Below the pieces are notes generated by a model. It ran no database searches and was not told where the DNA came from. It saw only the letters and a program-made list of their open reading frames with translations. Source: Lysobacterales bacterium (GTDB taxonomy: Bacteria > Pseudomonadota > Gammaproteobacteria > Xanthomonadales > SZUA-36). From it: 60,303 bases of DNA. Both the position numbers and the translations under genes were made by a program. Below, in pieces: positions 19,116 through 36,432 of the stretch. The stretch covers positions 1 to 60,303 of the forward strand of contig JABAAB010000085.1 of NCBI GenBank assembly GCA_014238945.1. The letters run 5' to 3'. The number at the start of each line of letters is the position of its first letter. Positions within the stretch are counted from its first letter, which is position 1.

Positions 19116-20513
19116 TTATTTTTCTTCCCAGGACAATCGCTTGCGGTAGATAGTCGAAGGACTGACCTCCAACAGGGCAGCCGCGCGTGGGACGTTGCCG
19201 TAATTCTGCTCAATGGCGCTTTCGATGGCTTGTTTTTCGGTCAACCACAATGGAATGATTTGCTGGGGCCCCATGACGACCTGGCTGGCTGGCTCGTCCA
19301 AATGGGGTGGATGTGCCGATATCTCATCAGTCCCGCCATTCATCAGACCCGGCAGCATTCTTGCGGTGATCATCTCGCCATCCTGCAGTACCACAATGTT
19401 CCTGATGATATTCTGCAACTGGCGGACATTCCCGGGCCAGTGGTAGCGGGAAAACAAGTCCATAGCATCTGCTGAAAAACCCGTGAAGCCCTTGCCTTCC
19501 TCCGCTGAGAAGTCTTGCAGGTACTTCTGAGCTATCAGCATTACATCATCACCACACTTACGCAGTGGGGGCAGATGGATGGGGATGACATGTAAACGGT
19601 AGTAGAGGTCCTCGCGAAAAATGCCATTCTCAACCATCTCCAGCGGATTCCGATTGGTTGCACAAACAAAACGGACATCGACCTTTTCCATCTTGTTTCC
19701 ACCCACTTTCTGGAACGTCCCGGTCTGGATGAATCGCAGTAACTTGCTCTGCATTGCCAGATCCATTTCGCCGATTTCATCAAGGAAAAGTGTCCCGCCA
19801 TGTGCCATCGTTGCCGCACCCATACGATCACCGCTGGCACCGGTAAATGCGCCTTTGACATGTCCGAATATTTCACTCTCCATCAATTCACGTGGAATTG
19901 CGGCACAGTTCAGTGCGATAAATGGCTGGTTGTGGCGGTTACCCTCGTTGTGAATGGCGTCCGCGCAAACCTCTTTTCCGGACCCGCTTTCACCGGTGAT
20001 AAACACCGAGGCACGGCTGGAAGCGGCACTTTCTATGATTCGATATATGGCCTGCATCGGAATGGCAGAGCCGATGAAACCGTGAAAACTGTCCCGTTCA
20101 AAACTGTCCTGGTATGTTTTTACCAGTGCCTTGAGGTTTTGACCATCCAATGCATTACGAACCGTTACACGTAAGCGCTCCGCTTCAAAAGGTTTTTGCA
20201 GGAAATCAAAAGCCCCCGCACGCATGGCCTCCACTGCCATATCCACCGAACCATGGGCGGTGATGACGATCACTGTCGGATCCTGAGGCAAATCTTTCAG
20301 TTGGCTCATCACCTCGAGTCCGTTGATATCCGGGAGATTCAGATCAAGCAGAATAACATCGGGGTTGTCATTGCTGATCACCTCCAAACCAGCACGGCCT
20401 TCGGTCACCGTGGTAACATCAATGGACAGGGGTTTGAGGTATTCCTGGTAGACCCTGGTCAGTGCCTCACTGTCTTCAATAAGCAGTACCTGAGGATTTT
20501 GCTGTTTATTCAT
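19116..20513 (-). CDS. LuxO/SypG-like sigma-54-dependent response regulator
   Basis: The 465-residue NtrC-family activator has three domains. The N-terminal receiver has Asp57 as phospho-acceptor (VILLDLNLP) and a Lys in DFLQKPF. The AAA+ domain has Walker A GESGSGKE and the sigma-54-contacting loop GAFTGAS. The C-terminal Fis-type helix-turn-helix ends NVPRAAALLEVSPSTIYRKR, which is close to the LuxO form. The ATG at 20513 is chosen because AAAAAGG stands nine bases upstream; the TTG at 20522 has no spacing. It follows the HPt-containing hybrid kinase by 78 bases and is probably its output. Three TTGCA-N3-TGCAA dyads near sigma-54 promoters in this window are the likely targets (inference). 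Confidence 0.93.
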   Translation of the reverse strand: MNKQQNPQVLLIEDSEALTRVYQEYLKPLSIDVTTVTEGRAGLEVISNDNPDVILLDLNLPDINGLEVMSQLKDLPQDPTVIVITAHGSVDMAVEAMRAGAFDFLQKPFEAERLRVTVRNALDGQNLKALVKTYQDSFERDSFHGFIGSAIPMQAIYRIIESAASSRASVFITGESGSGKEVCADAIHNEGNRHNQPFIALNCAAIPRELMESEIFGHVKGAFTGASGDRMGAATMAHGGTLFLDEIGEMDLAMQSKLLRFIQTGTFQKVGGNKMEKVDVRFVCATNRNPLEMVENGIFREDLYYRLHVIPIHLPPLRKCGDDVMLIAQKYLQDFSAEEGKGFTGFSADAMDLFSRYHWPGNVRQLQNIIRNIVVLQDGEMITARMLPGLMNGGTDEISAHPPHLDEPASQVVMGPQQIIPLWLTEKQAIESAIEQNYGNVPRAAALLEVSPSTIYRKRLSWEEK

Positions 20514-20591
20514 TATTGGCAACCTTTTTCATCTGATTCTGGTTTTCACATTTCGGTGGTTCTCTCTCTTCACGCTGATCCGCATGAGCTG

Positions 20592-23294
20592 TTAATACCT
20601 GCTGGAATACAATTTAATTGTTTGTTCTGCAACTTTTGCAAGGGCATTGATTGCTGCTATCGATTCTGCTATATCACCTTCGAGGCCCACCGATTCAACG
20701 ACACTTGACGCATTCTGTAAACTCAGCGCGCCAAAGGTTCCGGCAATGCTCTTGATGGCATGTGCCTCGGCCACAATCGCATCCAGATTGGCAAGTTCCC
20801 CCGCTTTCGATAATGCCACCATGTTTTCAGTGATTTCACGTTTAAAAACACCAATGATTTCCTGCACCAGTTCGGGAGCGGTCTCACGCTCCAAAGTTTT
20901 GAGCACCGCCAAATCCATCCATTGGCCATCCGCAGCGTGTTCACCCGGATCCCCGTTCAAATCAAGATCCCGCAAATCGGTTGGCTGTTCATTTGCCTGC
21001 TCAGATGCCGTTTTGGATAATGGTGTGGTGTTTACGCTGTCCGTATTCGTCCACTTCACCACGTGGGCCACTAAACTTTCGGCATTGATCGGTTTGGGCA
21101 TGAAGTCGTTCATACCAACTTCGAAACAGTTATCCATATCTTCCTGGAAGGCGTTGGCAGTCATCGCAACAATGGGTACACCAGACGATTCGCTATCCAG
21201 GTTCCGGATACGTTTGGTTGCTTCCAATCCATCCATCACCGGCATCGACAGATCCATGAACACCAAGTCGAAAACCTGTTGACTAATCACCTGGACGGCT
21301 TCTTCACCGTTGCTTGCAATTTTCACCTCACAGCCAACCTTCTTCAGCATGGCCTCGACGACCATCTGGCTGCCCTCGCTGTCCTCGACCACCAATACAC
21401 GGGCGGAAATGGGACCGTGGATTTCCTGAATCACTTCGGTTCTCTCAGGGCGGGTAGTTTCTACCAATGGTGCTGTGAACCAGAATGTGCTGCCACCGCT
21501 GGACGAAGGTCTGCAACCGATTTCACCTTCCATTAGTTCAACCAGGCTGCGTGAAATGGCGAGACCCAGGCCTGAACCACCCAGACTGCGTGTTAGAGAC
21601 GAATCCTCTTGGTAAAACTCGTCAAATATTTTCTCAGAAATTTCCGCGGAAATCCCTTTACCCGTGTCATTCACCGTAAATAAGAAATTTTGTCCGTTGG
21701 CAGGTTGCAGATTGACCGTCACGCTGCCGGACTCAGTAAATTTCAGGGCGTTACTGACCAGGTTGACCAGCACCCGGCGTAGCATGGCTTCATCCGCCTT
21801 GACCCAAATGGGCACATCGTCAGAGATCGCGGTGGAAAAATCCAGACCCGATGTATCCGCCTGTGCCCTGAACAATGCTTCCAGTTCATTAAAAAGTTCG
21901 CGCAGGCTGAAAGCACTTTCTCTCTTTTCCAAAGTTCCTGCTTCAATTTTGGAAAGATTTAGTATGCCATCGACCAGTGTAGCCAGAGCTTTACCTCCCT
22001 GGTTGGCGGTCAAGGCCAGTTTTTCCTGTTCCTCATCAAGATCGGTATCCAGCAGCAGTGAATTCAGGTTGATGATGGCGTTCAGCGGGGTCCGGATTTC
22101 ATGGCTCATATTGGCCAGGAATTGTGACTTGGCCTGATTGACTGCACGTGAACGCGCTTCCGCTTCCTTTTGATCGGTGATATCACGTATGAAACCCGTA
22201 AAAAAAGTTTTGTCACCAATGATCAAGGGTGTAATGGCCAATTCAATTGGAAATTCCTGGCCCTGTTTGTTTTGTGCTTCAATCTCAATGCGAAACCCGA
22301 GCACCGGACCTTCACCAGATTCCTGCCAGTGTTTCATACCCTTTCGGTGGGGTTCACGGTATTTCTCGGGAACGATCAATTCTGCCATTTCCTGGCCTAT
22401 TACCTCTTCAAGTGAAAACCCAAACAGGGTCTCCGCGGCCTCGTTGAAATCACAGACAACATCGTATTCGTCAATAGTAATAATGGCATCCAGCGCGGTG
22501 GACAGCATCGCGGTTTTCATTTTATCCCGCTCGGCCAGGTACGATGAATGCTGCTTATATTGCTCGGCTCTATCCTGCAATTCGCGATAGGCAACTGCCA
22601 GACTCTGCGACATATCATTGAGTGATTGACTTTCCTGTGCAAATTCATCACTGCCATGCGCCGCTATGGTCAAACCGGGCTCTTCGCTGGCAATCCTGTC
22701 CGCTGACTTTGCCAATTGATGAATCTGGCCGCTGAGCATGGTTCCAAACAGGTAGGAAATGACACCCAGCAGACCAAAAACAGGGAGTATCATACTGGTT
22801 CCCAACTGCTTCAGGTCGGCCAGGTGGTTCATGTTTCGCTTGGTGGTCAGGCCAAATTCGATTTGTCCTGCAAACCGGCCATCAACATTGATTGCACTGT
22901 GGGTAAAAAAAACACCATTTTCCAAAAAACCCGCACCGCGTTGTTCCTGAAAGGAACTGGACAGGGCAACGGAGTCACCGGTCTGAACCAGCACATCTCC
23001 CCGATCATTGCGCAACCGCACAAATACCACACCGGGGATGACCGCGACATCTCGCACAAGATGACCGATCAGATCCAGGTCACCCTCACGAAAGCCAGGT
23101 TTCAACAGGGTTTCGGTTTGTCTTGAAATCAAACTGGCCTGATCGTGCAACAGCTTGCTTTCGGACATCCGAATCCAGCCCATCCCTATATAGGCCAACG
23201 TGATTGTTAGCAAAATGCCAATCACGAAAACACCCAGTGCCGCTTTGATTCGATTTGTCATTTCAATTCCTGAATCAGGACCAGATTGTTGCAT
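20592..23294 (-). CDS. hybrid sensor histidine kinase with PAS, REC and HPt domains
   Basis: The 900-residue inner-membrane kinase has a first membrane helix at 20-40, a periplasmic sensor of about 120 residues, a second helix at 168-188 and a HAMP region to about 230. A PAS domain follows at about 262-375. HisKA carries His398 ([12 protein letters not shown]); HATPase has the N-box NLVSNALKFT, DTGKGIS and GGSGLGLAI. The receiver has Asp681, and the HPt domain has His845 (AEAHAIKSIAGTFGAL). The full His-Asp-His chain ends one step short of the adjacent regulator, so a phosphorelay to Asp57 of that protein is likely. Start ATG at 23294 with AGGAG seven bases upstream; an ATG at 23261 also has a good site. 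The N-terminal codons overlap a LuxO-type dyad. Confidence 0.95.
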   Translation of the reverse strand: MQQSGPDSGIEMTNRIKAALGVFVIGILLTITLAYIGMGWIRMSESKLLHDQASLISRQTETLLKPGFREGDLDLIGHLVRDVAVIPGVVFVRLRNDRGDVLVQTGDSVALSSSFQEQRGAGFLENGVFFTHSAINVDGRFAGQIEFGLTTKRNMNHLADLKQLGTSMILPVFGLLGVISYLFGTMLSGQIHQLAKSADRIASEEPGLTIAAHGSDEFAQESQSLNDMSQSLAVAYRELQDRAEQYKQHSSYLAERDKMKTAMLSTALDAIITIDEYDVVCDFNEAAETLFGFSLEEVIGQEMAELIVPEKYREPHRKGMKHWQESGEGPVLGFRIEIEAQNKQGQEFPIELAITPLIIGDKTFFTGFIRDITDQKEAEARSRAVNQAKSQFLANMSHEIRTPLNAIINLNSLLLDTDLDEEQEKLALTANQGGKALATLVDGILNLSKIEAGTLEKRESAFSLRELFNELEALFRAQADTSGLDFSTAISDDVPIWVKADEAMLRRVLVNLVSNALKFTESGSVTVNLQPANGQNFLFTVNDTGKGISAEISEKIFDEFYQEDSSLTRSLGGSGLGLAISRSLVELMEGEIGCRPSSSGGSTFWFTAPLVETTRPERTEVIQEIHGPISARVLVVEDSEGSQMVVEAMLKKVGCEVKIASNGEEAVQVISQQVFDLVFMDLSMPVMDGLEATKRIRNLDSESSGVPIVAMTANAFQEDMDNCFEVGMNDFMPKPINAESLVAHVVKWTNTDSVNTTPLSKTASEQANEQPTDLRDLDLNGDPGEHAADGQWMDLAVLKTLERETAPELVQEIIGVFKREITENMVALSKAGELANLDAIVAEAHAIKSIAGTFGALSLQNASSVVESVGLEGDIAESIAAINALAKVAEQTIKLYSSRY

Positions 23295-23443: not shown

Positions 23444-23460
23444 TTGGCACTACTCTTGCA
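23444..23460 (+). promoter_or_regulatory. sigma-54 promoter for the REC-PP2C/RsbW-like pair
   Basis: TTGGCACTACTCTTGCA contains the full -24 element TTGGCAC, GG-N10-GC spacing and the -12 element TTGCA. Transcription would start near 23471, about 46 bases before the ATG at 23517. Confidence 0.85.
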
Positions 23461-23516: not shown

Positions 23517-24749
23517 ATGAAGATATTAATAGTAGATGATGCCCCCGATATCCTAACCTGGTTAAGTGCACTATTGGTAAAAGCCGGTTGGGAAGTTATA
23601 GAAGCTGCGGATGGCATCGGTGCCTGTGAATACCTGGAGTCCATGGACATAAGGATTGTCATTACCGACTGGATGATGCCCGGTATGGATGGTCTCAGCC
23701 TGATCGAATGGATCAGGGCGCGCAATGAACATCGCTATATCTACACCATATTGATGACTTCAAGGAATGAGCAACGCGATTGTGTACAGGGTCTATCGGT
23801 TGGCGCAGATGATTACCTGACCAAACCGGTGGCATCGACCATATTGCATGCACGATTAAGTGTCGCCCAACGTATCTTGCAGATGCAGGAAGAACTGTTG
23901 ACGCAACAATCCCGCTTGCGTGAATCACGTGACCTGGTGACACGCACCTATGCCAGGGTGCGTGAAGACATTAAAAATGCAGCAGTTGTTCAAAAATCAC
24001 GATTACCGTACAACGGCCTGGCGGCCCGCTCGATTTCCACGGCCTGGTGTTACAGGCCGGCTATGGGTGTCTCTGGTGATCACCTCGATATATTCCAGGT
24101 TGGTGATAAACGAGTGGTGTTTTTTCTGCTCGATGTTTCTGGACACGGTGTCTCGGCGGCTCTGCGATCGTCTGCAATAAGCCAGCTGCTTCGACCAATC
24201 AGCGGCATGATGGATGGCCTGACCGAACATGGGCCCGGACATGTTTTGCAGCGGTTGAACCGTCAAATATGCGATGGCAACCAGGACCTGGATTTCTTTG
24301 CAACGCTGGTCATGGGCGATCTTGATGCAGCGACTGGATTGCTCAGACTGGCGTCTGCCGGACACCCCCCACCCCTGTTGTTAAGACAGGCTTTTGGCGC
24401 CGTCGAGATCAATTTTGGCGAACTGCCATTAGGTATAGACGACTCCATTTGTTACAGTAACCAGGAGATAATGTTGCAGCCTGGAGATTCACTGGTGCTG
24501 TTCTCAGACGGCCTGCTGGATTGCGAGGACAGTGGTGGACAACGGTACGGAATGAACCAATTCAGAAACAGGCTGGAAAATCACAGGCAACGAAAGCTAC
24601 CGGGACTATTGGAAAAAATTGAAGAAGATTTTGATGACTGGCGAGCCGGAGCACCGCTTGCTGACGATCTTTCCGTGCTGTTACTAAGATTCAACCCCGA
24701 ACACTTGCATACAGAAATAAACGAAGCGAAGAAATATCATGTCGGATGA
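23517..24749 (+). CDS. response-regulator PP2C phosphatase (RsbU/SypE-like)
   Basis: The 410-residue protein joins a receiver to a SpoIIE-type PP2C serine phosphatase. The receiver (1-120) has Asp7/Asp8, acceptor Asp51 (TDWMMPGMDG), Thr81 and Lys103. A coiled linker (about 120-160) leads to the phosphatase: GVSGDHLDIFQV (186-194), DVSGHGVSAAL (206-216), ASAGHPPPLLL, LFSDGLLD and ADDLSVLLLRF, with metal-binding Asps intact. It should remove phosphate from a phosphorylated STAS protein when its receiver is switched. The most obvious substrate is the STAS protein at 27245. It overlaps the kinase-like gene by 11 bases. In SypE the kinase, receiver and phosphatase are in one chain; here they are split. 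Confidence 0.92.
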   Translation: MKILIVDDAPDILTWLSALLVKAGWEVIEAADGIGACEYLESMDIRIVITDWMMPGMDGLSLIEWIRARNEHRYIYTILMTSRNEQRDCVQGLSVGADDYLTKPVASTILHARLSVAQRILQMQEELLTQQSRLRESRDLVTRTYARVREDIKNAAVVQKSRLPYNGLAARSISTAWCYRPAMGVSGDHLDIFQVGDKRVVFFLLDVSGHGVSAALRSSAISQLLRPISGMMDGLTEHGPGHVLQRLNRQICDGNQDLDFFATLVMGDLDAATGLLRLASAGHPPPLLLRQAFGAVEINFGELPLGIDDSICYSNQEIMLQPGDSLVLFSDGLLDCEDSGGQRYGMNQFRNRLENHRQRKLPGLLEKIEEDFDDWRAGAPLADDLSVLLLRFNPEHLHTEINEAKKYHVG

Positions 24750-25158
24750 GTTGATCACCAGGCATGTCCTGAAACTTAAAAGTAATCCCTCCGAGGTGGG
24801 AATACTGTTGGACAGGATGGAAAAGACATTGAAAATGTCTGGTCTGGAGGAAATATCGGCCTTTCATTTGCAATGTGCGGTAGTCGAAGTGATGAATAAT
24901 TCCATTCAGCATGCGTATCAGAACAAACCCGACCATCCAATTGAAATATCATTCGATATTAACCCGGGTCGGGTGCGGATCGGTGTTTCAGACCGTGGCC
25001 CGGCCTTTTTTGGACCGCCCAAACAGACACCACCCTCACCGCAGGACGAGTCCGGAAGAGGTTATGAAATAATTGGCGCCTGGGTCAACAAATTGGAGTT
25101 TGAACGCAACGACGATTGGAACACCTGTTGGCTGGAGCAAACTATTCAATCACTATGA
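24739..25158 (+). CDS. RsbW-like anti-sigma/STAS serine kinase
   Basis: The 139-residue single-domain HATPase belongs to the RsbW/SpoIIAB group. N-box EVMNNSIQHAY (Asn53, Asn54), ATP-lid VSDRGPAF (Asp85) and the glycine box ESGRGYEIIGAW (105-115) are present. There is no DHp His, so it should transfer phosphate to Ser or Thr of a STAS partner rather than act as a histidine kinase. It overlaps the PP2C gene (24739-24749), so the antagonistic pair is made together. No sigma factor of the sigma-B type is in the window, so the STAS protein itself is the likely output, as with SypA. Confidence 0.9.
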   Translation: MSDELITRHVLKLKSNPSEVGILLDRMEKTLKMSGLEEISAFHLQCAVVEVMNNSIQHAYQNKPDHPIEISFDINPGRVRIGVSDRGPAFFGPPKQTPPSPQDESGRGYEIIGAWVNKLEFERNDDWNTCWLEQTIQSL

Positions 25159-25180
25159 CAGTCTGTCTTTTGCCGCAGGT

Positions 25181-27001
25181 TTATGACCCAATGCGGACCT
25201 GTTCTTCATAATGGAGGCAAGCTGCCAACTGATCTATGAACTTGGCTGGATCGATGGGTTTGGACATATAGACATCACAGCCCGCTTTCAGACACTTGTC
25301 CCTGTCATCAAGAAATGCAAAAGCGGTCATGGCAATTATCGGGGTTCTGATCCCTGCCTGGCGCAATTTGGTCACAGCAGTATAACCGTCCATTATCGGC
25401 ATCAGCATATCCATCAGTATCAAGTTGGGTAGTTGACTCTGCTTACCGAACGCCAGGATACTGTCAACCGCCTCTTTACCGTTTGCAGAGTGCCTGACTT
25501 CTGCACCCGCCTCCTCAAGCAGGTGCTGCAACAAAAGCTTGATGGCCACGCTGTCTTCAACCACGTGTACCACCACATCGTCGAGACGACGTACGGACAG
25601 TGCCCTGACCCTGGGCTTATCCCGCGTCAGATTAAAAAACTTTGGAGCCACGCAAATCGTACTGTCCAGCGGTCCACAATCAATACGCAGTGTGAACAGG
25701 CTACCTTTTCCAGGCTCTGACTGAAGTTCGATAACACCACCGAGCATCCTTGCAAAATTCTGTGAAATCGTCAGACCGAGCCCGGTACCAAAACTCTTAT
25801 GCGCCGTTTCCTTGACCTGGGTGAATGGTTCAAAAATCTGCTTTAGAGTTTCATCATGAATGCCAATGCCAGTATCTTCTACCTCAACGATGAATTCGAG
25901 TTGTCTGTTGTCGGTGTTGGCAGCACTACGCAAACGAACATCCACACCACCTTTGTCTGTAAATTTCACCGCATTGGATATCAGATTTACCATCGTCTGC
26001 CTGAGTCTCAATGAATCGGTTTCGATGATCAGAGGCATGGGTCCAATGACCTCAACATTGAAATACAGTTCTTTCGCTTCGGCTCTTGGACGCATCAGGG
26101 CACAGACATCGGTGACAAGATCATTCAACTCGCAATTGCGGATATCGGGTTTGAACTCCCCCGACTCGATCTTTGCAAGGTCCAGCAAATCATTCATCAT
26201 GCCGAGCAAATGGTCTGAGTTACGACGTACCTGTTCGGCCCATTCAAAGCGTTCTTCACTTGATTTGTCCGGGCGTGTTAACAAGTCTCCATAACCTACT
26301 ATGGCGGTCATGGGTGTGCGAATTTCATGTGACATATTGGCCAGAAAACTGCTTTTTTGACGCGAGGCGTGATCGGCCCTGATTTTGGCCTCACGCAACT
26401 CCTCTGCCTTCTTCTCAAGACTGCGCTCGGTTCTTTGCAGCTGCTGAACGGTAGACTGCAATCTCTGCATTGCCAGTGCTGTTTCGATCCTGGTCGAAGC
26501 AAGAGAGGCAATTGTCGACAACAACTGAACATGATCCTCGCTAAAAAAATCAAGCTCAGGGTGTTCCGAATCCAACACTCCTATTACCTTGCCCTGGTGA
26601 ATAATCGGCACGGCCAATTCTGATAATCGATTGGCATCATCGGTTATGTAGCGCGGGTCCAATTGAGTATTTGCAATTCGTTCAACATTACCGGTAGCGG
26701 CCACGGATCCGACAATCCCCTCACCTACAGGCACCATGATCGGCTTGAAAATATCATGTGCAATGGGGTTTTTTGGACCATGAGCGGCTTTTTGTATCAA
26801 GTTGGCGCCCGTTTCATCCAGCAGATAGATGACACAGTCCAAAAAGCCCAGCTGGGCGATAGCTGTCTTGGCGACATTCCACAAGATTTCATCCAGTGAA
26901 TTCAGATCAACCTGAGACAGAGCAAATTCATGGATCACCTCAAGATATCGCGCTTTGCGACGCAATGTATCCAGGTCAAATGTCTGTTTGGGTTTGGTCA
27001 T
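25181..27001 (-). CDS. cytosolic GAF-domain hybrid sensor kinase
   Basis: The 606-residue kinase has no membrane helices. An N-terminal GAF domain (about 20-180; VPVGEGIVGSV, LAVPIIHQGKVIGVLD) leads through a coiled coil to HisKA with His225 ([12 protein letters not shown]). HATPase follows (NLISNAVKFTD, VEDTGIGI, GTGLGLTISQN), then a C-terminal receiver with acceptor Asp in LILMDMLMP and Lys in YMSKPI. It has no HPt, so phosphate must pass to an HPt elsewhere; His845 of the 20592-23294 kinase is the nearest. It sits, oppositely oriented, between the phosphatase/kinase pair and the STAS gene. The signal is unknown. Confidence 0.93.
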   Translation of the reverse strand: MTKPKQTFDLDTLRRKARYLEVIHEFALSQVDLNSLDEILWNVAKTAIAQLGFLDCVIYLLDETGANLIQKAAHGPKNPIAHDIFKPIMVPVGEGIVGSVAATGNVERIANTQLDPRYITDDANRLSELAVPIIHQGKVIGVLDSEHPELDFFSEDHVQLLSTIASLASTRIETALAMQRLQSTVQQLQRTERSLEKKAEELREAKIRADHASRQKSSFLANMSHEIRTPMTAIVGYGDLLTRPDKSSEERFEWAEQVRRNSDHLLGMMNDLLDLAKIESGEFKPDIRNCELNDLVTDVCALMRPRAEAKELYFNVEVIGPMPLIIETDSLRLRQTMVNLISNAVKFTDKGGVDVRLRSAANTDNRQLEFIVEVEDTGIGIHDETLKQIFEPFTQVKETAHKSFGTGLGLTISQNFARMLGGVIELQSEPGKGSLFTLRIDCGPLDSTICVAPKFFNLTRDKPRVRALSVRRLDDVVVHVVEDSVAIKLLLQHLLEEAGAEVRHSANGKEAVDSILAFGKQSQLPNLILMDMLMPIMDGYTAVTKLRQAGIRTPIIAMTAFAFLDDRDKCLKAGCDVYMSKPIDPAKFIDQLAACLHYEEQVRIGS

Positions 27002-27184: not shown

Positions 27185-27201
27185 TTGGCACATAGATTGC
27201 A
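27185..27201 (+). promoter_or_regulatory. sigma-54 promoter for the STAS gene
   Basis: TTGGCACATAGATTGCA has perfect TTGGCAC and TTGCA elements at GG-N10-GC spacing. Transcription should begin near 27212, 33 bases before the ATG at 27245. A TTG at 27185 that opens a longer frame lies inside the promoter and is not a real start. Confidence 0.9.
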
Positions 27202-27244: not shown

Positions 27245-27583
27245 ATGCAACTCGAACACACGACAGACCAGAACATCGAATTCATACGCCTGCCCCGACG
27301 ATTAATGATGGCAGATGCAAAGGAGACCAAGAAGTCTCTTCACGGCTTTATTGGCAAAAAACAGCCCCTGATTGCACTGGACATGAGTTCAGTGGAATTT
27401 ATCGACTCCAGCGGTCTTGCCGTACTGGTCAATTGCCTGCAAACCAGTCGCCGAAACAGTGGCGAAATCTGTCTGTATGGCATGAGAGATACGGTTAAAG
27501 CCCTGTTTGAAATCACGCGGCTACACACCCTGTTTCCCATCGTCAATCACCGCCAGGAGGCGTTGAGGAGATTGTCATCATAA
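27245..27583 (+). CDS. STAS-domain anti-anti-sigma-like protein (SypA-like)
   Basis: The 112-residue STAS domain stands alone. The phosphorylation loop is EFIDSSGLAVLVN, with Asp54 and Ser55/Ser56; one of these serines is the family's switch residue. GGAG nine bases before the ATG at 27245 fixes the start. Its own perfect sigma-54 promoter, LuxO-type dyad and position before glycosyltransferases make it the likely output of the RsbW-like/PP2C pair. In V. fischeri unphosphorylated SypA promotes polysaccharide-dependent biofilm; the same role here is inference. Its size matches SypA-like and SpoIIAA-like proteins. Confidence 0.9.
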   Translation: MQLEHTTDQNIEFIRLPRRLMMADAKETKKSLHGFIGKKQPLIALDMSSVEFIDSSGLAVLVNCLQTSRRNSGEICLYGMRDTVKALFEITRLHTLFPIVNHRQEALRRLSS

Positions 27584-27652: not shown

Positions 27653-27789
27653 GTTTCCACAAGAAGTATTCCTGCTTTATCGAATACCCGATGCATACCT
27701 GCTGAGCCCATCACTTGCAGGAAAATCAATCAGGGTACCGGATACTCAAATTATCGATATCCCATGACCAATATCACGGAGAAAACATC

Positions 27790-29103
27790 ATGTCATTGAG
27801 TAACCCCTTCCCAGGCACAAACACTTTCTTCGATCGCCGCACAGTTTTGAAAGACAACTGCAAACCCCGGAAAATGCGTGTCATCCAGATCCCGAACCGT
27901 TTCGTAAAAGAACAATGGAGTGGCACGGAAACCACCATTCTCGAAACCAGTCGGGTATTGAATTCCCATGGGCACAATAGTTCAGTGTTCTCAATGAAAG
28001 CTTTGTGCGAACGGCATCAGGAACAGATTCGTGGTGTCGATATTCAACGACATGGATTCTTCCACCCTTATCCGGGCTTGTCCCTAAAAGACAGGTGCGA
28101 CATGGACAAAAAAGGCGAACGTCTGATTTCGATATCGACGCTGGCATCGCTCACAAGAGCCAAAGCTGTTGATATCCTGCATGCACATAACTGTAAAGGA
28201 CTCGGCAGTATTGTACGTAGTGTTGCGCAATTACGAGGCCTGCCTTATGTAATCAGCCTGCATGGCAGCACACTGGATGTCCCCACCGATGAGAGACAAC
28301 ATAACCCTGAACCTGTAAATGGCACATTTGAGTGTTACCGGATGATTGACTCTGTGTGGGGTGCCGAACGGGTTTTGGAGGATGCCAGCGCCATTATTTG
28401 TATCAATCAGAATGAGCAGCAGGCGGTTCAGGCACGTTACCCGCACAAACGTGTCGAATGGTTGCCTAGCGGTGTTGACACGGACAGCTTCTCCAACGGT
28501 TATGGTTACGATTTCCGTGAGAAAAATGGAATACCACATAACCGCAAGATCATCCTGAATGTGGGTAGTATTGATTCACGCAAAAACCAACTGGCATTGT
28601 TGGAGACGATGCCCGCATTGCTACGCAAGCACAACAATATACACCTGGTGTTGATCGGCCCGGTGACGGTTGAGTCCTACGGCATGGAGCTGCTTCAAAG
28701 AGTCCATGATGCTTCACTGTATGACAATGTAAGCATCATTCCGGGTCTTCCAAACGGCTGTACCGAGTTGATAAACGCCTACCAGGCTGCAGATATTTTC
28801 TGTCTGCCATCACGTCACGAAACTATTGGTATTACGGTACTCGAAGCCTGGGCCTCCGGACTGCCTGTGGTTGCTTCGAGAGTTGGCAGTATCCCTTCGT
28901 TCACGCAAAACGGTGTTGATGTGCTGCATGCTGACCCTTCAAAACCTGAAACCTTTACAGTTGCCATAGACAGGCTTCTCAGAGATAGCAACTTTGCATC
29001 CCGGCTCGCCGCCAGGGGTCGCTTCAAAGCCCGGACGGATTATGACTGGCGCCAGGTGACCAACCGGCTTGAGGATCTGTACAGTGACCTGCTGAGAACC
29101 TGA
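27790..29103 (+). CDS. GT4-family glycosyltransferase
   Basis: The 437-residue GT-B enzyme has an N-terminal acceptor half (KMRVIQIPNRFVKEQWSGTE; LHAHNCKGLGSIVRSVAQL). Its C-terminal donor half has LNVGSIDSRKNQLALLE, VLIGPV, and PSRHETIGITVLEAWASGLP with the E-x7-E signature. It transfers a sugar from a nucleotide-sugar donor at the cytoplasmic face of the inner membrane. Acceptor and sugar are unknown. I used the ATG at 27790 with GGAG eight bases upstream; an upstream TTG lacks such a site. It lies 206 bases after the STAS gene. Confidence 0.9.
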   Translation: MSLSNPFPGTNTFFDRRTVLKDNCKPRKMRVIQIPNRFVKEQWSGTETTILETSRVLNSHGHNSSVFSMKALCERHQEQIRGVDIQRHGFFHPYPGLSLKDRCDMDKKGERLISISTLASLTRAKAVDILHAHNCKGLGSIVRSVAQLRGLPYVISLHGSTLDVPTDERQHNPEPVNGTFECYRMIDSVWGAERVLEDASAIICINQNEQQAVQARYPHKRVEWLPSGVDTDSFSNGYGYDFREKNGIPHNRKIILNVGSIDSRKNQLALLETMPALLRKHNNIHLVLIGPVTVESYGMELLQRVHDASLYDNVSIIPGLPNGCTELINAYQAADIFCLPSRHETIGITVLEAWASGLPVVASRVGSIPSFTQNGVDVLHADPSKPETFTVAIDRLLRDSNFASRLAARGRFKARTDYDWRQVTNRLEDLYSDLLRT

Positions 29104-29249
29104 ATAGTGCGCAGAATTCAGCGTCATGACCGGGTACTGTTTCAGGACCATAGCGAGTCGATGAGAACCGATACTTCTACCATCTTATCGGGCCGGGGTG
29201 TTCACCAGGATTGCCTGGATCAATTCAAGCACAGGACGGATTTGCCGAA

Positions 29250-30422
29250 ATGAAAATAGGGGTATCAGCATTCGCAGGCGACTGCGGAAAATCCGAAATC
29301 ACCCAATACATGAAACAACTCTTCAAGCTTCTCCCTCTGGAGTCGTATGATGATGAATTCATATTATTTATGACCCATGCCGACCGGAAACATTTTGGCC
29401 TGGACCATCCACGTGTGACGGTTGTTGCATTTCCAGACTGGATGGGAAAATCGGTTGCCAATATCATATGGCATCTGCTGATGCTGCCGTTATTGCTGGC
29501 CGCGTACCACTGCGATTGTGTCTTTCTACCCGCAGCAAATCGGTGCCTGTCCTGGTGGTATGGCGTGCCCTCGGTGGGAACGGTCCACGATATCTCTTCC
29601 TTCCACACCAAGGGCAGGTATAACCCAATCAGGGAGTTTTACGCGTCCAGGGTTCTACCCCTGTTCATGCGACAACTGACGCAGGTGATTGCTGTCAGCC
29701 AGGCAACCCGGCGTGACCTGGAGCAAAACACCAACATTGAATCCACGCGTATTGACGTAATCTACAACGGCACCGACCTGGACCGTTTCAGGCCCAGGCA
29801 AAAATCTTTGGCGATACAGCGCGTCCGGCAGAAGCACAATATAAGAACACCATATATTCTCTACACCGCTCGTCTGGAACATCCCAGTAAAAACCACATC
29901 CGTTTGCTGCAGGCCTTCGCACAACTGAAAAACGAGCAAGATTTGCCTCACGACCTGGTGCTGGCAGGCAGCCCCTGGTATGGCTCAGATGCCATTTACG
30001 CAGCGGCAGGAGATCTCCGGATTGCCCGTTTTGTTCACTTTCCAGGATTCGTATCGCAACAGGATCTTCCCGACCTGTATGCTGCTGCGGACCTGTTTGT
30101 ATTCCCGTCACTTTTCGAGGGGTTTGGTTTACCTTTATTGGAAGCCATGGCATCAGCCACCCCGTTGTGTGCTTCAAACGTCGCCAGCATACCGGAGATT
30201 GTCCAGAACGCTGGGTTACTCTTTAATCCGCAAAGCAGCGATGATATTGCACAGTCCATCGCCCGGCTTGCCGGTGATGCTCAACTACGGGACAGGTTGG
30301 TTGATCGTGCTCTGAAACAAGCGCGTCGCTTCAGTTGGAACGACTCGGCAAGTCAGGTTTTGCAGAGCTGTCATACCGCCGCAGATGTGGATAAACACAT
30401 ACAGAGTATCGTCTCTGGCTAA
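29250..30422 (+). CDS. GT4-family glycosyltransferase
   Basis: The 390-residue GT-B transferase contains GTVHDISSFHTKGRYNP (acceptor side), AVSQATRRDLEQ, YTARLEHPSKNHIRLLQAF, FPGFVSQQDLPDLYAAADLF and PSLFEGFGLPLLEAMAS with the E-x7-E pair. This composition is close to mannosyl- or rhamnosyl-type GT4 enzymes of polysaccharide clusters. The ATG at 29250 is favoured; an AGGA is rather far away (13 bases). A TTG 39 bases upstream also has AGGA and remains possible. It follows the first GT by 146 bases with the same orientation. Confidence 0.9.
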   Translation: MKIGVSAFAGDCGKSEITQYMKQLFKLLPLESYDDEFILFMTHADRKHFGLDHPRVTVVAFPDWMGKSVANIIWHLLMLPLLLAAYHCDCVFLPAANRCLSWWYGVPSVGTVHDISSFHTKGRYNPIREFYASRVLPLFMRQLTQVIAVSQATRRDLEQNTNIESTRIDVIYNGTDLDRFRPRQKSLAIQRVRQKHNIRTPYILYTARLEHPSKNHIRLLQAFAQLKNEQDLPHDLVLAGSPWYGSDAIYAAAGDLRIARFVHFPGFVSQQDLPDLYAAADLFVFPSLFEGFGLPLLEAMASATPLCASNVASIPEIVQNAGLLFNPQSSDDIAQSIARLAGDAQLRDRLVDRALKQARRFSWNDSASQVLQSCHTAADVDKHIQSIVSG

Positions 30423-31020: not shown

Positions 31021-33054
31021 TCAGGAATAACGCTGCCAGGTTTCCAGGTAACAATCCACCAGCTGGCGTCGATCAGAATCCGGTGATACCGCCAAAGTGA
31101 CAGCCACGTTGACTGGTGTGTGCACCGCTGAAGAATTTAATAACAGTGGCAATACAGAAATCAACCGCTCACGTGGATATCGCAATGCCCAGTGCAGGTG
31201 ACGCATCGTATGTGATGTACCGAAATCCCGAAGTGAAATGACGAAATTCCTGAACAACCGGGATGTTTCCAACTGCCCCTTGGGCAAATTGGGCGAAGCG
31301 TACTCTCTCCAGTTGCTGATGCGTTGGTCCGTCCTGCACATTTCAAGCCTTGAGAAAGCAGCCAGCCAGCAATCGGTAATCCTTCGTTGCCAGGCTGGCA
31401 AATTGACATCACCGAACCGGTCAGGGTCGGGATAAAATTTTTGCTCCACCGCCAGTCTGTAGAGCTTGATGAAGTTCGGTCCTGGTGATTGCCTGAGCCG
31501 TGTAATACGTTTTTTCTTTTCCACATAAGATGGGTGGTAGGCACCTTCCACAGCAAGATAGGCATCGCCGCAAGCGAGTACGGTCTTGAACAGATGCTTG
31601 AAGAAAGTTTCACGTTGCCGATGACTCAATTCCACATTCTCGCTCAGCATGCGCGTGTTCATCAGTAGCAGGGCACCCCTATTGTTCATCAAACGGGTGA
31701 ACTCACCCATGGGCAATTTATCAAATGGCATACCCGGCATATGCTTTAGGACTCTGTGGTCACCAGTCACTATGCGGTGCCCCCACTTCATCTCCGCGTT
31801 CATCAGTGTGAAGGGTGCGGATACAAGAGTCTCTGTGGGCATCACGGCCAGATTCACCTCTACGCCAACCCGTTCCTGGAGCTGAAGTGCCACGTGTTTG
31901 AGTTGTTGTTGCAGAACTCCTGCCCTCCTGCGGTTCATTCCCTTAACCATGACCACGTAGTCATAGTCGTTATAGGGTGAGGGCCGTCCATCCTGATAAC
32001 GGTAACCACCCTCTCCACGCCCATAACCGCCCATCAGTACCAGTGCAGCAAAGTTCTCCCGTGCGACCACGCGACGGACATGGGCACCAATAATGGCTTG
32101 GTCCCTGGCCACGCGTGTTTCAGCCTGCCGGTTGCCGTCAAAGGTAAATGATTCCTCACCCACTCTTGTGGACAAACATGAACTGGCTTCGTCTTGACGG
32201 CCTTTTCGAATCCCGCGCCAGCGGGCCCATTTCTGTACAAATCGAAGGGGAATACTGTGTAATAGCGCATCTGCAGAACACCGGTTCAAAGCCCAACGCA
32301 AGTCACGAAATATCTCCATACCGAAAGGTGTCAGGAAATTGCGTGACCAGGATGCGCTTAATTCTCCTTCAGAAAATATAAACGCATACGCTATACCCTC
32401 GCCGAAATACCGTTTATAAATCTGCTTCAGACTGTAATTATGGGAGTGAAACACAATTGCATCGGCCACATAACGAACATGGTGCCCGCCCCGACGAAGT
32501 CGATAGGACCACTCCATGTCCTGCCCATATGGTAACGCGGTTTCAAATGGAAAGTGCTTGAGCACCCGGGTACGCGCAGCCGAATTGGCCATTGAAAAAA
32601 AATGCAACCAGGAGGCAGATTCCGTTCCATCTCCAAAGGCACGTTCCTTATCTTTTACAAAAAGACTGCGGCAATCTGGCCGGGAAACCTGGCGCCCGAA
32701 TACTGCACCGACATTGGGATCCTTCAGGGGTTCGATCAAATTCTCCAGCCAGTACTCATCCGCAGGGGTGGCGTCCGGGTCCAGGAACACCAGGATTTCC
32801 GCTTTGACCTTGGCGACCACATCATTCAGTACCCTGCCTGGATTATGGCCAGCCGGATCACTATGGATGATTCGATCTGCATGATTGTATTGCTGAATGA
32901 CTTCAAGTGTACCGTCGGTGGAGCGCAAGGCGAAATTCCACAACTCAAAGTTCTGCAAGGATTGCCGGGAGAGCATCTTCAATGTGTCGCGTATGACGTC
33001 AATATCGTTATGGGAACGCATAATTACGGCTATGCCGGGGCTTGATTCAGACAT
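31021..33054 (-). CDS. GT2 glycosyltransferase fused to a nucleotidyltransferase-like domain
   Basis: In this 677-residue protein, residues 1-about 240 are a GT-A fold: IAVIMRSHNDIDVIRDTL, DXD as Asp92-x-Asp94 (LVFLDPDATP), and QDMEWSYRLRRGG (179-190) carrying the catalytic acid. Residues about 320-480 look like a MNT/kanamycin-type nucleotidyltransferase: LVLMGGYGRGEGG (339-350) and NDYDYVVMV, with Asp363-x-Asp365 as the metal pair. The last 200 residues are basic and helical. The second domain could activate or modify a substrate with a nucleotide, or be a scaffold. GGAGAG stands before the ATG. It lies 24 bases behind a small basic gene. Confidence 0.85.
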   Translation of the reverse strand: MSESSPGIAVIMRSHNDIDVIRDTLKMLSRQSLQNFELWNFALRSTDGTLEVIQQYNHADRIIHSDPAGHNPGRVLNDVVAKVKAEILVFLDPDATPADEYWLENLIEPLKDPNVGAVFGRQVSRPDCRSLFVKDKERAFGDGTESASWLHFFSMANSAARTRVLKHFPFETALPYGQDMEWSYRLRRGGHHVRYVADAIVFHSHNYSLKQIYKRYFGEGIAYAFIFSEGELSASWSRNFLTPFGMEIFRDLRWALNRCSADALLHSIPLRFVQKWARWRGIRKGRQDEASSCLSTRVGEESFTFDGNRQAETRVARDQAIIGAHVRRVVARENFAALVLMGGYGRGEGGYRYQDGRPSPYNDYDYVVMVKGMNRRRAGVLQQQLKHVALQLQERVGVEVNLAVMPTETLVSAPFTLMNAEMKWGHRIVTGDHRVLKHMPGMPFDKLPMGEFTRLMNNRGALLLMNTRMLSENVELSHRQRETFFKHLFKTVLACGDAYLAVEGAYHPSYVEKKKRITRLRQSPGPNFIKLYRLAVEQKFYPDPDRFGDVNLPAWQRRITDCWLAAFSRLEMCRTDQRISNWREYASPNLPKGQLETSRLFRNFVISLRDFGTSHTMRHLHWALRYPRERLISVLPLLLNSSAVHTPVNVAVTLAVSPDSDRRQLVDCYLETWQRYS

Positions 33055-33078
33055 AATTTTCTCTCCTGGTGTACTCGT

Positions 33079-33458: not shown

Positions 33459-33475
33459 TGCAAGATGTATGCCCG
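33459..33475 (-). promoter_or_regulatory. sigma-54 promoter, leftward, for the small basic gene and GT2 unit
   Basis: On the minus strand CGGGCATACATCTTGCA has GG-N10-GC spacing, a TTGCA -12 element and a GGGCAT variant of the -24 element. The LuxO-type dyad at 33605 lies 129 bases upstream. Confidence 0.65.
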
Positions 33476-33503
33476 AACTGGGCCCTACCCATAAAAAGGA
33501 CAT

Positions 33504-33518
33504 AATTCATTGTATTTA
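33504..33518. repeat. AT-rich element, partial copy
   Basis: Fifteen bases (AATTCATTGTATTTA) are identical to 33717-33731 and share 13 with 27147-27159. This copy lies upstream of the leftward sigma-54 promoter. With the GGTCCTGCAG repeat at 33572 and 33681, it suggests that the divergent promoter region arose by local duplication. Confidence 0.6.
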
Positions 33519-33604
33519 CTGGGTTTATTAAACTTGAAAGATGTGAGGGAGGACGCTAACGCGGGTCGAGTGGTCCTGCAGAGTGCATACGATCTTAGTG
33601 GATT

Positions 33605-33617
33605 TTGCAATCTGCAA
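33605..33617. promoter_or_regulatory. LuxO-type dyad TTGCA-ATC-TGCAA (central, divergent)
   Basis: The arms are perfect; only the spacer base C departs from W3. It lies between a leftward sigma-54 promoter (129 bases away) and a rightward one (162 bases away), so one bound activator could serve both transcripts. A weaker copy, CTGCATATTGCTT, follows at 33624-33636 with its centre 19 bases away. The gap 33328-33835 holds these regulatory sites and no gene that I can support. Confidence 0.6.
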
Positions 33618-33718
33618 AGCGGTCTGCATATTGCTTCTGAATTCAAACGAGGAGCATAACAATGGGAATGTGAAAGACCGGGTCCTGCAGTGGTCCTGGC
33701 ACTCATGGAGACTGTTAA

Positions 33719-33740
33719 TTCATTGTATTTATTAACTTTT
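33719..33740. repeat. 22-bp AT-rich element, copy 2
   Basis: Identical over 22 bases to 27147-27168. It lies 41 bases before the -24 GG at 33782. Confidence 0.7.
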
Positions 33741-33779
33741 GGTAAATCATGATCCGGAAAGCAAAAACTCAATTCCGTA

Positions 33780-33796
33780 CTGGCATTAATCTTGTA
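33780..33796 (+). promoter_or_regulatory. sigma-54-like promoter with GT in the -12 element
   Basis: CTGGCATTAATCTTGTA has TGGCA and GG-N10 spacing, but the -12 dinucleotide is GT rather than GC. Transcription would start about 29 bases before the ATG at 33836, which has TAAGGAGA upstream. The GC to GT change usually weakens such promoters. Confidence 0.5.
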
Positions 33797-33835
33797 TATC
33801 TATAGATCGTATTCATTATGTAAGGAGACCCCAGT

Positions 33836-35467
33836 ATGACACCCCTGTCCAACCAGGAAGTCATTTCAAACCAGGAGATGCCGGAAGGGCATGGATCATC
33901 CAGTTTGCACCCATCGGCCCAAACCACCGATAGCCGCGAATTTGATCCACAAGGTGTTACCGACTCTTCCCAGGTTCAAGAGAACCAGGGCCAACAGAAT
34001 TTTCACGTATTTGGAGTCCACGTCCTCAATTCAAGGACGACATCGGTACTCGATGACATAGAAAAGAACATATCCTTTGGAAAACAGGAAACAATTGGCC
34101 TTGTTGGCGCTCAACGCCTGAACAAGTGCTTTTCTGATTCAAAGTACCATCACACGCTACAACAAATGAACCGGGTCTATCCAGAAGGCATGGCTCTACG
34201 CAGCGCATCAAGAATACTTGGCTGCAAAGTACAGGACAACATCACAGGCATTGCTCTTTTCTCACAACTTTGTGAACGATTAGCCAACAGCTCTGAGGGC
34301 ATATTCCTCCTGGGTGGGGATGATGGTATCGCTCGTGCTACCGCAAAAAAAATGATGCAGCGTTATCCGGGACTGATCATTTCAGGTTGCCAACACGGCA
34401 ACTTCAAAACCAACCAAGAGGAGGCCGTCATTAACAAGATCAATACATCGGGTGCTGCCGTCCTTTTGGTCGACTTTGGTACACCCAGACAGGAAGTCTG
34501 GCTAACAGAAAATCGTGACCGCCTGCATGCCCCTGTGTTGATGTGTGTTGGTGGTCTGTTTGACGCGCACGCAGGTTCAGTGAAATGTGTACCTGCGTGG
34601 CTTGGTAAAGTCGGGCTTGAGTGGGCTCGGAGAGCCCTGCGGGCACCAGTTAGCAACTGGCTTCGCCACAGCATAGAAAACTCGCGTTTCCTTTACCGGG
34701 TATGGCGTCAAAAAAACAAGAACGGAACCATTGCGCGCCCCATGAAAATTACCCCATCCGAAGAGGCCAACATTATTGAACATTTCGGAACACTGGATCA
34801 GGCCGCACCATTGCGTCGCCGGATTACCAGGGTACGACAAGTCTATTGGCAGGGATTGCATGTCGGTGCGGCAGCGGTCAAACGGATGATGGATGTTATT
34901 GCAGCGGCCATCCTGATGATCCTGCTGGCCCCCTTGTTCCTGGTTGTCGCCGTGTTGATCCGGTCAGAGAGCCCAGGACCCACATTTTTCACCCAGATGA
35001 GGGTAGGCGAACGCGGCAGTCTGTTCAGATTGTGGAAATTCCGCTCCATGTATATGGACGCAGAAGAGCGGCGGGCAGAACTTGATGCCACCAATGAAAT
35101 GACTGGCGGTGTGACTTTCAAAATAAAGAATGACCCCCGGATTACCCGCATTGGCTATTACATTCGCAAGTTCTCAATTGACGAGCTACCCCAACTGTGG
35201 AATGTATTCACTGGTGACATGTCGCTGGTGGGTCCGAGGCCAGCTATTGAATCAGAGGTCGAACTCTACACTATCGAAGAGCGTGTTCGACTGCTTGCAA
35301 AACCCGGTCTGACCTGTATCTGGCAGGTGTCCGGCCGTTCCGAGATTCCCTTTAGCCAACAGGTTGTACTGGATGAGGATTATCTCTACCGCCAATCCCT
35401 GGCAACCGATATCAAACTTTTATTCCGAACCATCCCTGCCGTATTACGGGGAAAGGGCGCTTACTGA
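33836..35467 (+). CDS. WecG/TagA-type glycosyltransferase fused to monotopic phosphoglycosyl transferase
   Basis: In this 543-residue fusion, residues about 57-290 are a GT26 domain: FHVFGVHVLNSRTT, GIFLLGGDDGIARA, GFPKQE-like DFGTPRQEVW (213-222) and CVGGLFDAHAGSVK. Residues 349-543 are a bacterial sugar transferase: KRMMDVIAAAILMILLAPLFL re-entrant helix, LWKFRSM, catalytic Asp449-Glu450 (SIDELPQLWNV), DMSLVGPRPA and GLTCIWQVSGR. The C-terminal part puts the first sugar phosphate on undecaprenyl phosphate, and the N-terminal part would add the second sugar, so both first steps are in one chain. The first ~55 residues are polar linker. The GT26 'DG' loop reads PEGMAL, a D-to-E change that might matter for activity. 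Confidence 0.93.
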   Translation: MTPLSNQEVISNQEMPEGHGSSSLHPSAQTTDSREFDPQGVTDSSQVQENQGQQNFHVFGVHVLNSRTTSVLDDIEKNISFGKQETIGLVGAQRLNKCFSDSKYHHTLQQMNRVYPEGMALRSASRILGCKVQDNITGIALFSQLCERLANSSEGIFLLGGDDGIARATAKKMMQRYPGLIISGCQHGNFKTNQEEAVINKINTSGAAVLLVDFGTPRQEVWLTENRDRLHAPVLMCVGGLFDAHAGSVKCVPAWLGKVGLEWARRALRAPVSNWLRHSIENSRFLYRVWRQKNKNGTIARPMKITPSEEANIIEHFGTLDQAAPLRRRITRVRQVYWQGLHVGAAAVKRMMDVIAAAILMILLAPLFLVVAVLIRSESPGPTFFTQMRVGERGSLFRLWKFRSMYMDAEERRAELDATNEMTGGVTFKIKNDPRITRIGYYIRKFSIDELPQLWNVFTGDMSLVGPRPAIESEVELYTIEERVRLLAKPGLTCIWQVSGRSEIPFSQQVVLDEDYLYRQSLATDIKLLFRTIPAVLRGKGAY

Positions 35468-35481
35468 ACTGGAGAACTAAC

Positions 35482-36432
35482 ATGCGAGCCATCATCATAG
35501 CCGAACATTCAGAGTGCCAACTGTCCCCGTTGACAGCCCGCACCCCCTATCCACTGTTACCGCTGGCAGGAAAACCGATCCTGATGCATGCCCTGGAGGT
35601 GCTGCACCGCAGTTCAATCAGGGAGGTTGATGTGGTGTCCCCGGAACTACACCAGCAACTCGAAACTGAAATTGATACCGGCCCATTCATGGGCATGACA
35701 GTACGCTTTGTACACGCCATGCCGGATCTCAAAAACGCGTCACAACACAGCCTGATTGTTGGTCTGAGCGATATTGTTGATACTGACTGGAACGACATCC
35801 TCGATGATCTGGGTGATCTTGACGTACATGCATTGATACCCATAAAGATGACCATGCACGCGATTCCCGTGGCCATGCTGGTTCCGCCGCATTTTGGTCG
35901 ATCATCTTTGAATTGGACACGACCGGGACTGAAATACAGTTATGGTAACTTTGACGACAAAATATCATGCGACTGGAGTGAACTTCACCGCACCGAAGCC
36001 ATTCAACTTCCGATCAATCCCCAGTATCTGATCTCGACCGGTAATTTTGAAGATTATTACCAGGCAAATTTTGCACTTTTGAAAGGCAAGTTTAATTATA
36101 TGAAGTCTGCCGGGCGTGAGTACCTGACCGGACACCGATCTGCGCCAAAGGCGCGTGTCAACGAGCGGTCCATCCTTTCAAGACACGGATATTTCGGCTC
36201 CTATTGCCGTATCGACAAGACCGCCAGACTGTATGGCGATGTGATCATCGGCAACAGTGCCATAGTGGACAAGGGGGCGAGGGTATCTGACAGCATCATA
36301 TGCGACAACACGTACATCGGATCCAATATCGACTGCCGAAAAGCCATAGTGAACGGTAACCTGATGGTCAAGGTGGACACGGGTGTATGTATTGAAATCG
36401 ATGACCCCGTATTGTTCGGGGCAATCAATTGA
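35482..36432 (+). CDS. degenerate sugar-nucleotide pyrophosphorylase with left-handed beta-helix end
   Basis: The 316-residue protein resembles sugar-1-phosphate nucleotidyltransferases in frame (MRAIIIAE at the start, SPLTARTPYPLLPLAGKPILMHALE). The key residues are changed: the G-x-G-x-R-L loop is HSECQLSPLT with Arg replaced, and the P-K-P lysine is Tyr (TPYPL). The C-terminus has hexapeptide turns (ARLYGDVIIGNSAIVDKGARVSDS, then IICDNTYIGSNIDC) typical of a trimeric beta-helix. Loss of catalytic residues suggests a pseudoenzyme, perhaps a regulatory or oligomerising subunit. GGAG eight bases upstream supports the ATG. It lies 14 bases after the fusion transferase. Confidence 0.8.
   Translation: MRAIIIAEHSECQLSPLTARTPYPLLPLAGKPILMHALEVLHRSSIREVDVVSPELHQQLETEIDTGPFMGMTVRFVHAMPDLKNASQHSLIVGLSDIVDTDWNDILDDLGDLDVHALIPIKMTMHAIPVAMLVPPHFGRSSLNWTRPGLKYSYGNFDDKISCDWSELHRTEAIQLPINPQYLISTGNFEDYYQANFALLKGKFNYMKSAGREYLTGHRSAPKARVNERSILSRHGYFGSYCRIDKTARLYGDVIIGNSAIVDKGARVSDSIICDNTYIGSNIDCRKAIVNGNLMVKVDTGVCIEIDDPVLFGAIN

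Follow-up and report, generated by a model that had tools for sequence, protein, structure and literature searches.

What does a partner switch control when its genes lie among polysaccharide genes and beside a LuxO-like activator? The question is raised by a 60,303-nt stretch of an uncultured Lysobacterales bacterium (assembly GCA_014238945.1, contig JABAAB010000085.1, positions 1 to 60,303; hereafter the window), which is contig C20 of a draft genome of 4.85 Mb in 126 contigs with 98% completeness (G000). Its region 19,116-36,432 (Table 1) had been described in a sequence-only reading as holding a LuxO/SypG-like sigma-54 activator, a kinase ending in HPt, a receiver-bearing (REC) PP2C phosphatase, a separate RsbW-like kinase and a STAS protein, followed by glycosyltransferases (GTs) and an initiating phosphoglycosyl transferase (PGT), with a second hybrid kinase and fused enzymes among them. 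Every one of these parts was found by Pfam, and the key motifs checked in the regulatory parts were intact. We consider the region to be probably a syp-type dual-control circuit for exopolysaccharide with a STAS output on initiating enzymes. Within this reading, the enhancer-promoter wiring has strong sequence evidence behind it, and it is plausible that the STAS output regulates the polysaccharide-initiating enzymes and not a sigma factor.

The wiring was studied through sigma-54 promoters and LuxO-type enhancers. Three perfect sigma-54 promoters are present in the window versus 0.12 expected, and two perfect copies of the LuxO-type enhancer TTGCAWWWTGCAA versus 0.04 expected. These enhancers sit 144 and 97 bp upstream of the perfect promoters of the PP2C-RsbW and STAS-GT operons, respectively. 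Because such pairs precede both operons, strong sequence evidence connects the genes for phosphatase, kinase and STAS with the activator, and the parts look like one circuit, as had been supposed. In front of WecG-PGT stands a third, weaker pair, with one mismatch in the enhancer and two in the promoter. The whole genome has 17 perfect sigma-54 sites, compared with 6 for a reversed control pattern; three of the 17, and two of the three perfect enhancer sites, are located in the window, a clustering with a chance under random placement of about 0.001 for the promoters and about 0.0005 for the enhancers. Relatives of the activator present the same arrangement. With at most one mismatch allowed in each element, a distance of 20-250 bp and the stretches of contig C50 of the same genome excluded, pairs were detected at 7 of the 22 loci around activator orthologues (window included), while 60 Markov-generated controls gave a mean of 0.07 loci and a maximum of 1, and loci without a nearby activator gave none (0/14). 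Specifically, in G252 a pair precedes the STAS gene, its promoter ending 81 bp before the ATG, and in G316, a gammaproteobacterial symbiont of Taylorina sp. (which we take to be a bivalve), a pair precedes REC, STAS-PGT and GT4 genes. That the LuxO-type activator with its kinase and an unrelated partner switch are two independent systems that happen to be neighbours would agree with activator orthologues lacking a PP2C neighbour (Azospirillum) and with PP2C-RsbW loci beside polysaccharide genes where no activator is visible (G167, G235, Pantoea), yet the perfect pairs stand exactly before PP2C-RsbW and STAS, the layout recurs in G252 and G316, and activator and PP2C are adjacent in G362, which makes this explanation very unlikely.

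Concerning the class of the activator, comparison with the NCBIfam models gave 649 bits for LuxO, with NtrC next at 393, and the closest solved structure by sequence was that of LuxO (5ep0, 494 bits; best chain not named LuxO, 330). All seven tested orthologues from other genomes were likewise best to LuxO (572-680 bits), whereas none of three paralogues from the own genome matched LuxO among hits shown to E 1e-112, their best models being NtrC, AtoC or the PEP-CTERM regulator. Both controls agree with the class first assigned. The activator is classed as a member of the LuxO/SypG clade, yet not as LuxO itself, because its LuxO score, like those of the seven orthologues, lies under the equivalog cut-off of 800 bits. 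It keeps the GAFTGA motif. Of the 38 other genomes of the family, 2 have clear orthologues (63% and 50% identity; 664 and 444 bits; next match 331 bits), and 16 of the 369 genomes sampled from the class, own included, pass E 1e-115. An Aeromonas caviae record (activator 59%) has no usable gene annotation and showed no enhancer pair at the stringency used. The motif TTGCAWWWTGCAA is reported as a LuxO site that is used by SypG at qrr1, and mutations of the qrr1 site as affecting the action of both LuxO and SypG in V. fischeri (PMC10162802). Rfam models matched two tRNAs, and no Qrr RNA, in the window and seven further stretches of the genome.

The partner-switch proteins carry the residues looked for in RsbU/V/W systems. 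The PP2C protein has the receiver Asp51, GDHLD from residue 187, DVSGHG from 206 and DD at 383-384, so that its metal residues are present; the RsbW-like kinase, whose gene overlaps that of PP2C by 11 bp, has N- and G-boxes, with an E-x3-N box; and the H-box, REC and HPt motifs were found in the hybrid kinase at 20592-23294. The STAS protein carries DSSG, the second serine of which, residue 56 from ATG 27245, is the presumed phospho-acceptor. Its start is very probably this ATG, which is preceded by a GGAG box, and not 27185, because the perfect sigma-54 promoter occupies 27186-27201. A canonical partner switch, with the RsbW-like kinase holding a sigma factor (or an anti-sigma target) encoded elsewhere and the polysaccharide genes as mere neighbours or regulon, would suit the matches of kinase and STAS to the RsbW, SpoIIAB and ant_ant_sig models, and the own genome has two further modules, with PP2C, RsbW-like and STAS genes in a row on C64 and, on C28, a STAS gene near a protein of 674 aa that joins PP2C and RsbW-like domains (read from its C-terminal domains). 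The HsbR-HsbA system of Pseudomonas aeruginosa and similar ones also combine a receiver-gated phosphatase, an RsbW-like kinase and a STAS output, as in the window, HsbR uniting phosphatase and kinase in one protein, unlike the split genes here; the own genome holds the 674-aa protein separately. HsbR is reported to regulate RpoS (PMC6482189). However, among the 40 open reading frames (ORFs) of the window that were scanned there is no sigma-factor match, as the sequence-only reading had noted, the genome as a whole not having been searched for one; sigma-54 sites already account for transcription of the locus, and relatives fuse STAS to WecG and PGT. A canonical switch is therefore unlikely in our view.

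These fusions supply a plausible candidate, WecG and PGT, for the STAS output that had been left open. G316 encodes a WecG that continues into two STAS regions, of which the second has LDSTGL at the acceptor site, and PP2C and RsbW-like genes lie directly downstream. It also encodes a STAS-PGT protein with IDSSGI in the N-terminal STAS, on a contig that holds an activator and a hybrid kinase as well. Additional WecG-STAS proteins were found on C50 of the own genome and in one Verrucomicrobia and one Victivallales metagenome-assembled genome, the Victivallales locus also encoding proteins homologous to a GT4 (39%) and to the GT2 domain (36%) of the window. STAS-WecG fusions thus span Gammaproteobacteria, Verrucomicrobia and Victivallales, and the STAS-PGT fusion occurs in one lineage. 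A scan with two peptide patterns led to 15 loci, which is not a census. WecG-STAS was seen in G000 only among 39 genomes of the family, and in two (G000 and G316) of the 369 of the class, where the STAS profile was run on 30 fetched places and not on every match; of 37 WecG loci scanned, G316 and G000 only were positive. Both genomes are among the four with activator and PP2C (E < 1e-60), which has a chance of about 9e-5 in a small sample that includes the genome under study as one of the two. A custom STAS profile, built in part from the G316 STAS-PGT fusion that also served as its positive control, detected no STAS fused to other PGTs in 22 further loci, one of them that of the window. In the window itself STAS and WecG/PGT are separate genes by Pfam, without fusion. 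An effect of STAS on a cyclic di-GMP (c-di-GMP) enzyme or another regulator, with indirect control of polysaccharide, has a precedent in P. aeruginosa, where SiaC activates the cyclase SiaD (PMC8457831), but the scanned window ORFs gave no GGDEF or EAL match and the fusions point to enzymes, so that we find this less credible still than a canonical switch. As a separate observation, a receiver fused to a Ser/Thr protein kinase (L233, 2646-3917) lies near the Verrucomicrobia WecG-STAS, where a different kinase type may serve STAS.

Full-length relatives of the REC-PP2C protein (33-36% identity, E < 1e-60) occur in five other genomes of the 369, and in four of these they lie among polysaccharide genes. 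The neighbours are a ManC-type protein, an epimerase and a hexapeptide-Bac_transf protein in G252; RsbW-like, STAS, Wza and weakly Wzz-like proteins in G167; two GT2s, a Bac_transf-WecG fusion, an NTP-hexapeptide-Bac_transf protein and an RsbW-like protein in G235; and WecG-STAS and an RsbW-like protein in G316. In the fifth, G362, the genes of hybrid kinase, activator and PP2C form a row, and the only neighbour put through Pfam is a carbohydrate phosphorylase. Two other PP2C matches were not counted as support: near that of G440 (L147) only nucleotide-sugar-type ORFs were read, and near that of G294 (L148) STAS-like and ABC-type genes. When STAS was searched against a plasmid collection, 18 records matched, with about 27-34% identity where at least 80% of the query was covered; PP2C matches there had at most 34.4% identity. 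These matches led to polysaccharide contexts in Pantoea and Vibrio sp. THAF190c, where PP2C, STAS and RsbW-like genes, in other orders, lie next to DUF3131 genes and to a gene for a cellulose-synthase-like protein or a GT2.

On this basis, two hybrid kinases would feed one HPt (in the kinase at 20592-23294), which would phosphorylate both the activator and the REC-PP2C phosphatase. In a first arm, which has strong sequence evidence behind it, the activator, on TTGCAWWWTGCAA sites and with sigma-54, would transcribe PP2C-RsbW and STAS-GT4-GT4, probably also WecG-PGT with the NTP-hexapeptide gene, and the unlinked C50 run from Wza to WecG-STAS. In a second arm, as architecture and the syp precedent suggest, the RsbW-like kinase would phosphorylate Ser56 and switch STAS off, and the phosphorylated REC-PP2C would dephosphorylate STAS and switch it on. 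Free STAS would then act on WecG and/or PGT, as the gene fusions suggest, giving post-transcriptional control. Several points weigh against this circuit. Phosphate flow, the action of kinase and phosphatase on STAS and the enzyme target are read from architecture, fusions and syp, and the promoter preceding WecG-PGT is weak. At the place of DSSG, the C50 fusion shows IESTAL and VDNAAL in its STAS regions, and therefore the window kinase may not act on that fusion. G316 is the only genome with STAS fusions together with PP2C and RsbW genes, and the evidence from G316 and from G252 is each spread over two contigs. A fold model of WecG-STAS-STAS (three sequences) is of low confidence (pLDDT 58, pTM 0.47), and domain contacts are not resolvable in it. 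A profile scan of the G235 and G362 stretches examined found no STAS gene. G022, of the same family, has the nearest relative locus, in which activator, hybrid kinase and one GT4 homologue are kept; its PP2C lacks both the receiver and the DxSGHG motif, and the 10.8-kb contig shows neither a kinase nor a STAS gene, so that the second arm is dispensable there. Activator orthologues in Azospirillum and Paroceanicella lie near metabolic and not polysaccharide genes, which argues against a role of the activator family in polysaccharide alone. Finally, the window shows no enrichment of the SypG motif TTCTCANNNTGMDW (7 one-mismatch matches versus 11 expected), and none of these matches falls in the PP2C or STAS promoter regions; given the TTGCAWWWTGCAA sites, DNA specificity therefore looks LuxO-like and not syp-promoter-like.

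The locus resembles syp, the circuit behind the biofilm polysaccharide of the squid symbiont V. fischeri (RscS/HahK-SypF-SypG and SypE-SypA), in its LuxO/SypG-class activator with sigma-54 promoters, its HPt-ending hybrid kinase, alike in architecture, its receiver-bearing PP2C with RsbW-like kinase, its STAS with Ser56 and its polysaccharide setting. It differs in that SypE is a single protein with RsbW, REC and PP2C parts, whereas here two overlapping genes encode REC-PP2C and RsbW; the GAF hybrid kinase and the WecG-PGT and GT2 fusions are further differences, the gene order differs, with activator and hybrid kinase genes opposite to most others, and export genes are unlinked (Wza and a flippase-like protein on C50), no export, flippase or polymerase gene being found among the scanned window ORFs. 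From its sequence, the locus works like syp and is no syp locus proper, on account of the split SypE, the export genes and the SypG motif, which fits the variant or unstudied relative that had been suggested. In syp, control is described at and below transcription, SypE acting below syp transcription via SypA (PMC12369376), and unphosphorylated SypA is active, its target being called unknown (PMC8256260, PMC10120452). In the scv locus of Vibrio parahaemolyticus a sigma-54 response regulator (ScvE, orthologue of SypG) controls a polysaccharide locus too, although the scv cluster is described as lacking SypE and SypF orthologues, and the window has both gene classes (PMC8941931). Concerning STAS in polysaccharide settings, Anabaena all4160, a glycosyltransferase with N-terminal STAS, was noted before, as was HmpV of Nostoc HmpUVW, a STAS protein in a motility/polysaccharide locus whose target is called unknown; the account of all4160 consulted mentions no partner-switch kinase or phosphatase (PMC8256260), whereas the G316 WecG-STAS has both directly downstream. 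No publication linking partner switching to a glycosyltransferase was found in the literature searched, as far as its accessible text goes. A 2021 review and papers from 2015 and 2023 describe, in the portions consulted, the way in which SypA promotes biofilm as unknown. The locus and its relatives offer a concrete candidate for a SypA-type output, STAS acting on WecG/PGT-type enzymes, and the fused relatives suggest that one enzyme-acting arm would supply the step still unknown in V. fischeri. We propose only tentatively that the partner switch here, and perhaps in syp, ends at WecG-type or PGT enzymes through a phosphorylation-gated STAS and not at gene expression, in which case V. fischeri SypA would act on a Syp transferase. 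The locus and its relatives indicate that the syp logic of one phosphorelay with a transcription arm and a post-transcription arm is found outside vibrios too, with conserved LuxO-type enhancers, and the natural STAS fusion proteins are suited to biochemistry. As a side observation, a putative heme-NO-binding-like gene, read by eye and by BLAST between both genomes, lies near a LuxO-type activator and polysaccharide genes in G025 (C99, L051) and G269 (C57, L195) and recalls V. fischeri HnoX-HahK.

Other likely targets are found elsewhere in the own genome. On C50, a one-mismatch sigma-54 promoter stands 44 bp before the gene of a Wza-type protein with SLBB repeats and has two one-mismatch enhancer sites at distances of 65 and 107 bp. 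A weak Wzz-like protein (E 0.007) is encoded next on that strand, and the WecG-STAS fusion ends the run. A divergent run, with a perfect sigma-54 site in front of it, codes for GT4, GT2, an unknown protein, a flippase-like and a sulfotransferase-like protein. On C37, a DUF4842/GEVED protein and a hybrid kinase with MASE2 and HPt each have a pair upstream, that of the kinase with a two-mismatch promoter. Among further one-mismatch enhancer sites that were inspected, those in stretches of C52, C22, C13 and C112 and on C25 showed no such pair.

Table 1. Features of the window, with positions, strand and basis of assignment.
Feature	Position	Strand	Basis
LuxO/SypG-type sigma-54 activator, REC-Sigma54_activat-HTH_8 (REC-AAA+-Fis HTH)	19116-20522	-	Pfam, NCBIfam LuxO, LuxO structure 5ep0, paralogue control
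Hybrid sensor kinase PAS-HisKA-HATPase-REC-Hpt, SypF-like architecture	20592-23294 (start maybe 23261)	-	Pfam, motifs
LuxO-type enhancer site, perfect, TTGCATTTTGCAA	23289-23301	no strand	Motif as in PMC10162802
Sigma-54 promoter, perfect, TGGCACTACTCTTGCA, 57 bp 5' of PP2C ATG	23445-23460	+	
REC-PP2C (SpoIIE-type) serine phosphatase	23517-24749	+	Pfam, alignment, motifs
RsbW/SpoIIAB-like serine kinase, HATPase_c_2	24739-25158	+	Pfam, RsbW structure 6m36, N- and G-boxes
Second hybrid kinase GAF-HisKA-HATPase-REC, without HPt	25181-27001	-	Pfam
LuxO-type enhancer site, perfect, TTGCAATTTGCAA	27077-27089	no strand	
Sigma-54 promoter, perfect, TGGCACATAGATTGCA, 44 bp 5' of STAS ATG	27186-27201	+	
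STAS protein, RsbV/SypA-like	27245-27583 (ORF open from 27185)	+	Pfam, NCBIfam ant_ant_sig above cut-off
GT4 glycosyltransferase, 3' of STAS	27715-29103	+	Pfam
GT4 glycosyltransferase, homologue at 43% identity in G022 locus	29211-30422	+	Pfam
GT2 glycosyltransferase with long C-terminal part	31021-33054	-	Pfam (GT2 only)
Enhancer site, 1 mismatch, TTGCAATCTGCAA	33605-33617	no strand	
Weak sigma-54-like promoter, 2 mismatches, TGGCATTAATCTTGTA, 40 bp 5' of WecG-PGT ATG	33781-33796	+	
WecG/TagA/CpsF glycosyltransferase fused to PGT (Bac_transf)	33836-35467	+	Pfam
NTP-transferase-like domain with hexapeptide repeats	35482-36432	+	Pfam, alignments

Among the enzymes of the window, the WecG-Bac_transf fusion has relatives with the two domains in the same order in G381 and G275 (Pfam) and in G269 (BLAST). 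The C-terminal part of the GT2 protein has no Pfam match and carries the motif GGYGRGEG...NDYDYV, which we take to be nucleotidyltransferase-like. The NTP-transferase-like domain of the NTP-hexapeptide protein is without the GxGTRL signature, and this protein might partner the initiating transferase without being catalytic itself, because its relatives in G235 and G252 have a C-terminal Bac_transf-like part. Nucleotide-sugar genes at 2533-5949 (+; GDP_Man_Dehyd/epimerase, NTP transferase and RmlD by Pfam) possibly supply dTDP-rhamnose. Finally, the third perfect sigma-54 promoter, at 50460-50475 (-), is without an enhancer site and stands upstream of two Pfam-less proteins (48348-48968 and 48984-50099) and a hybrid kinase (46291-48351).

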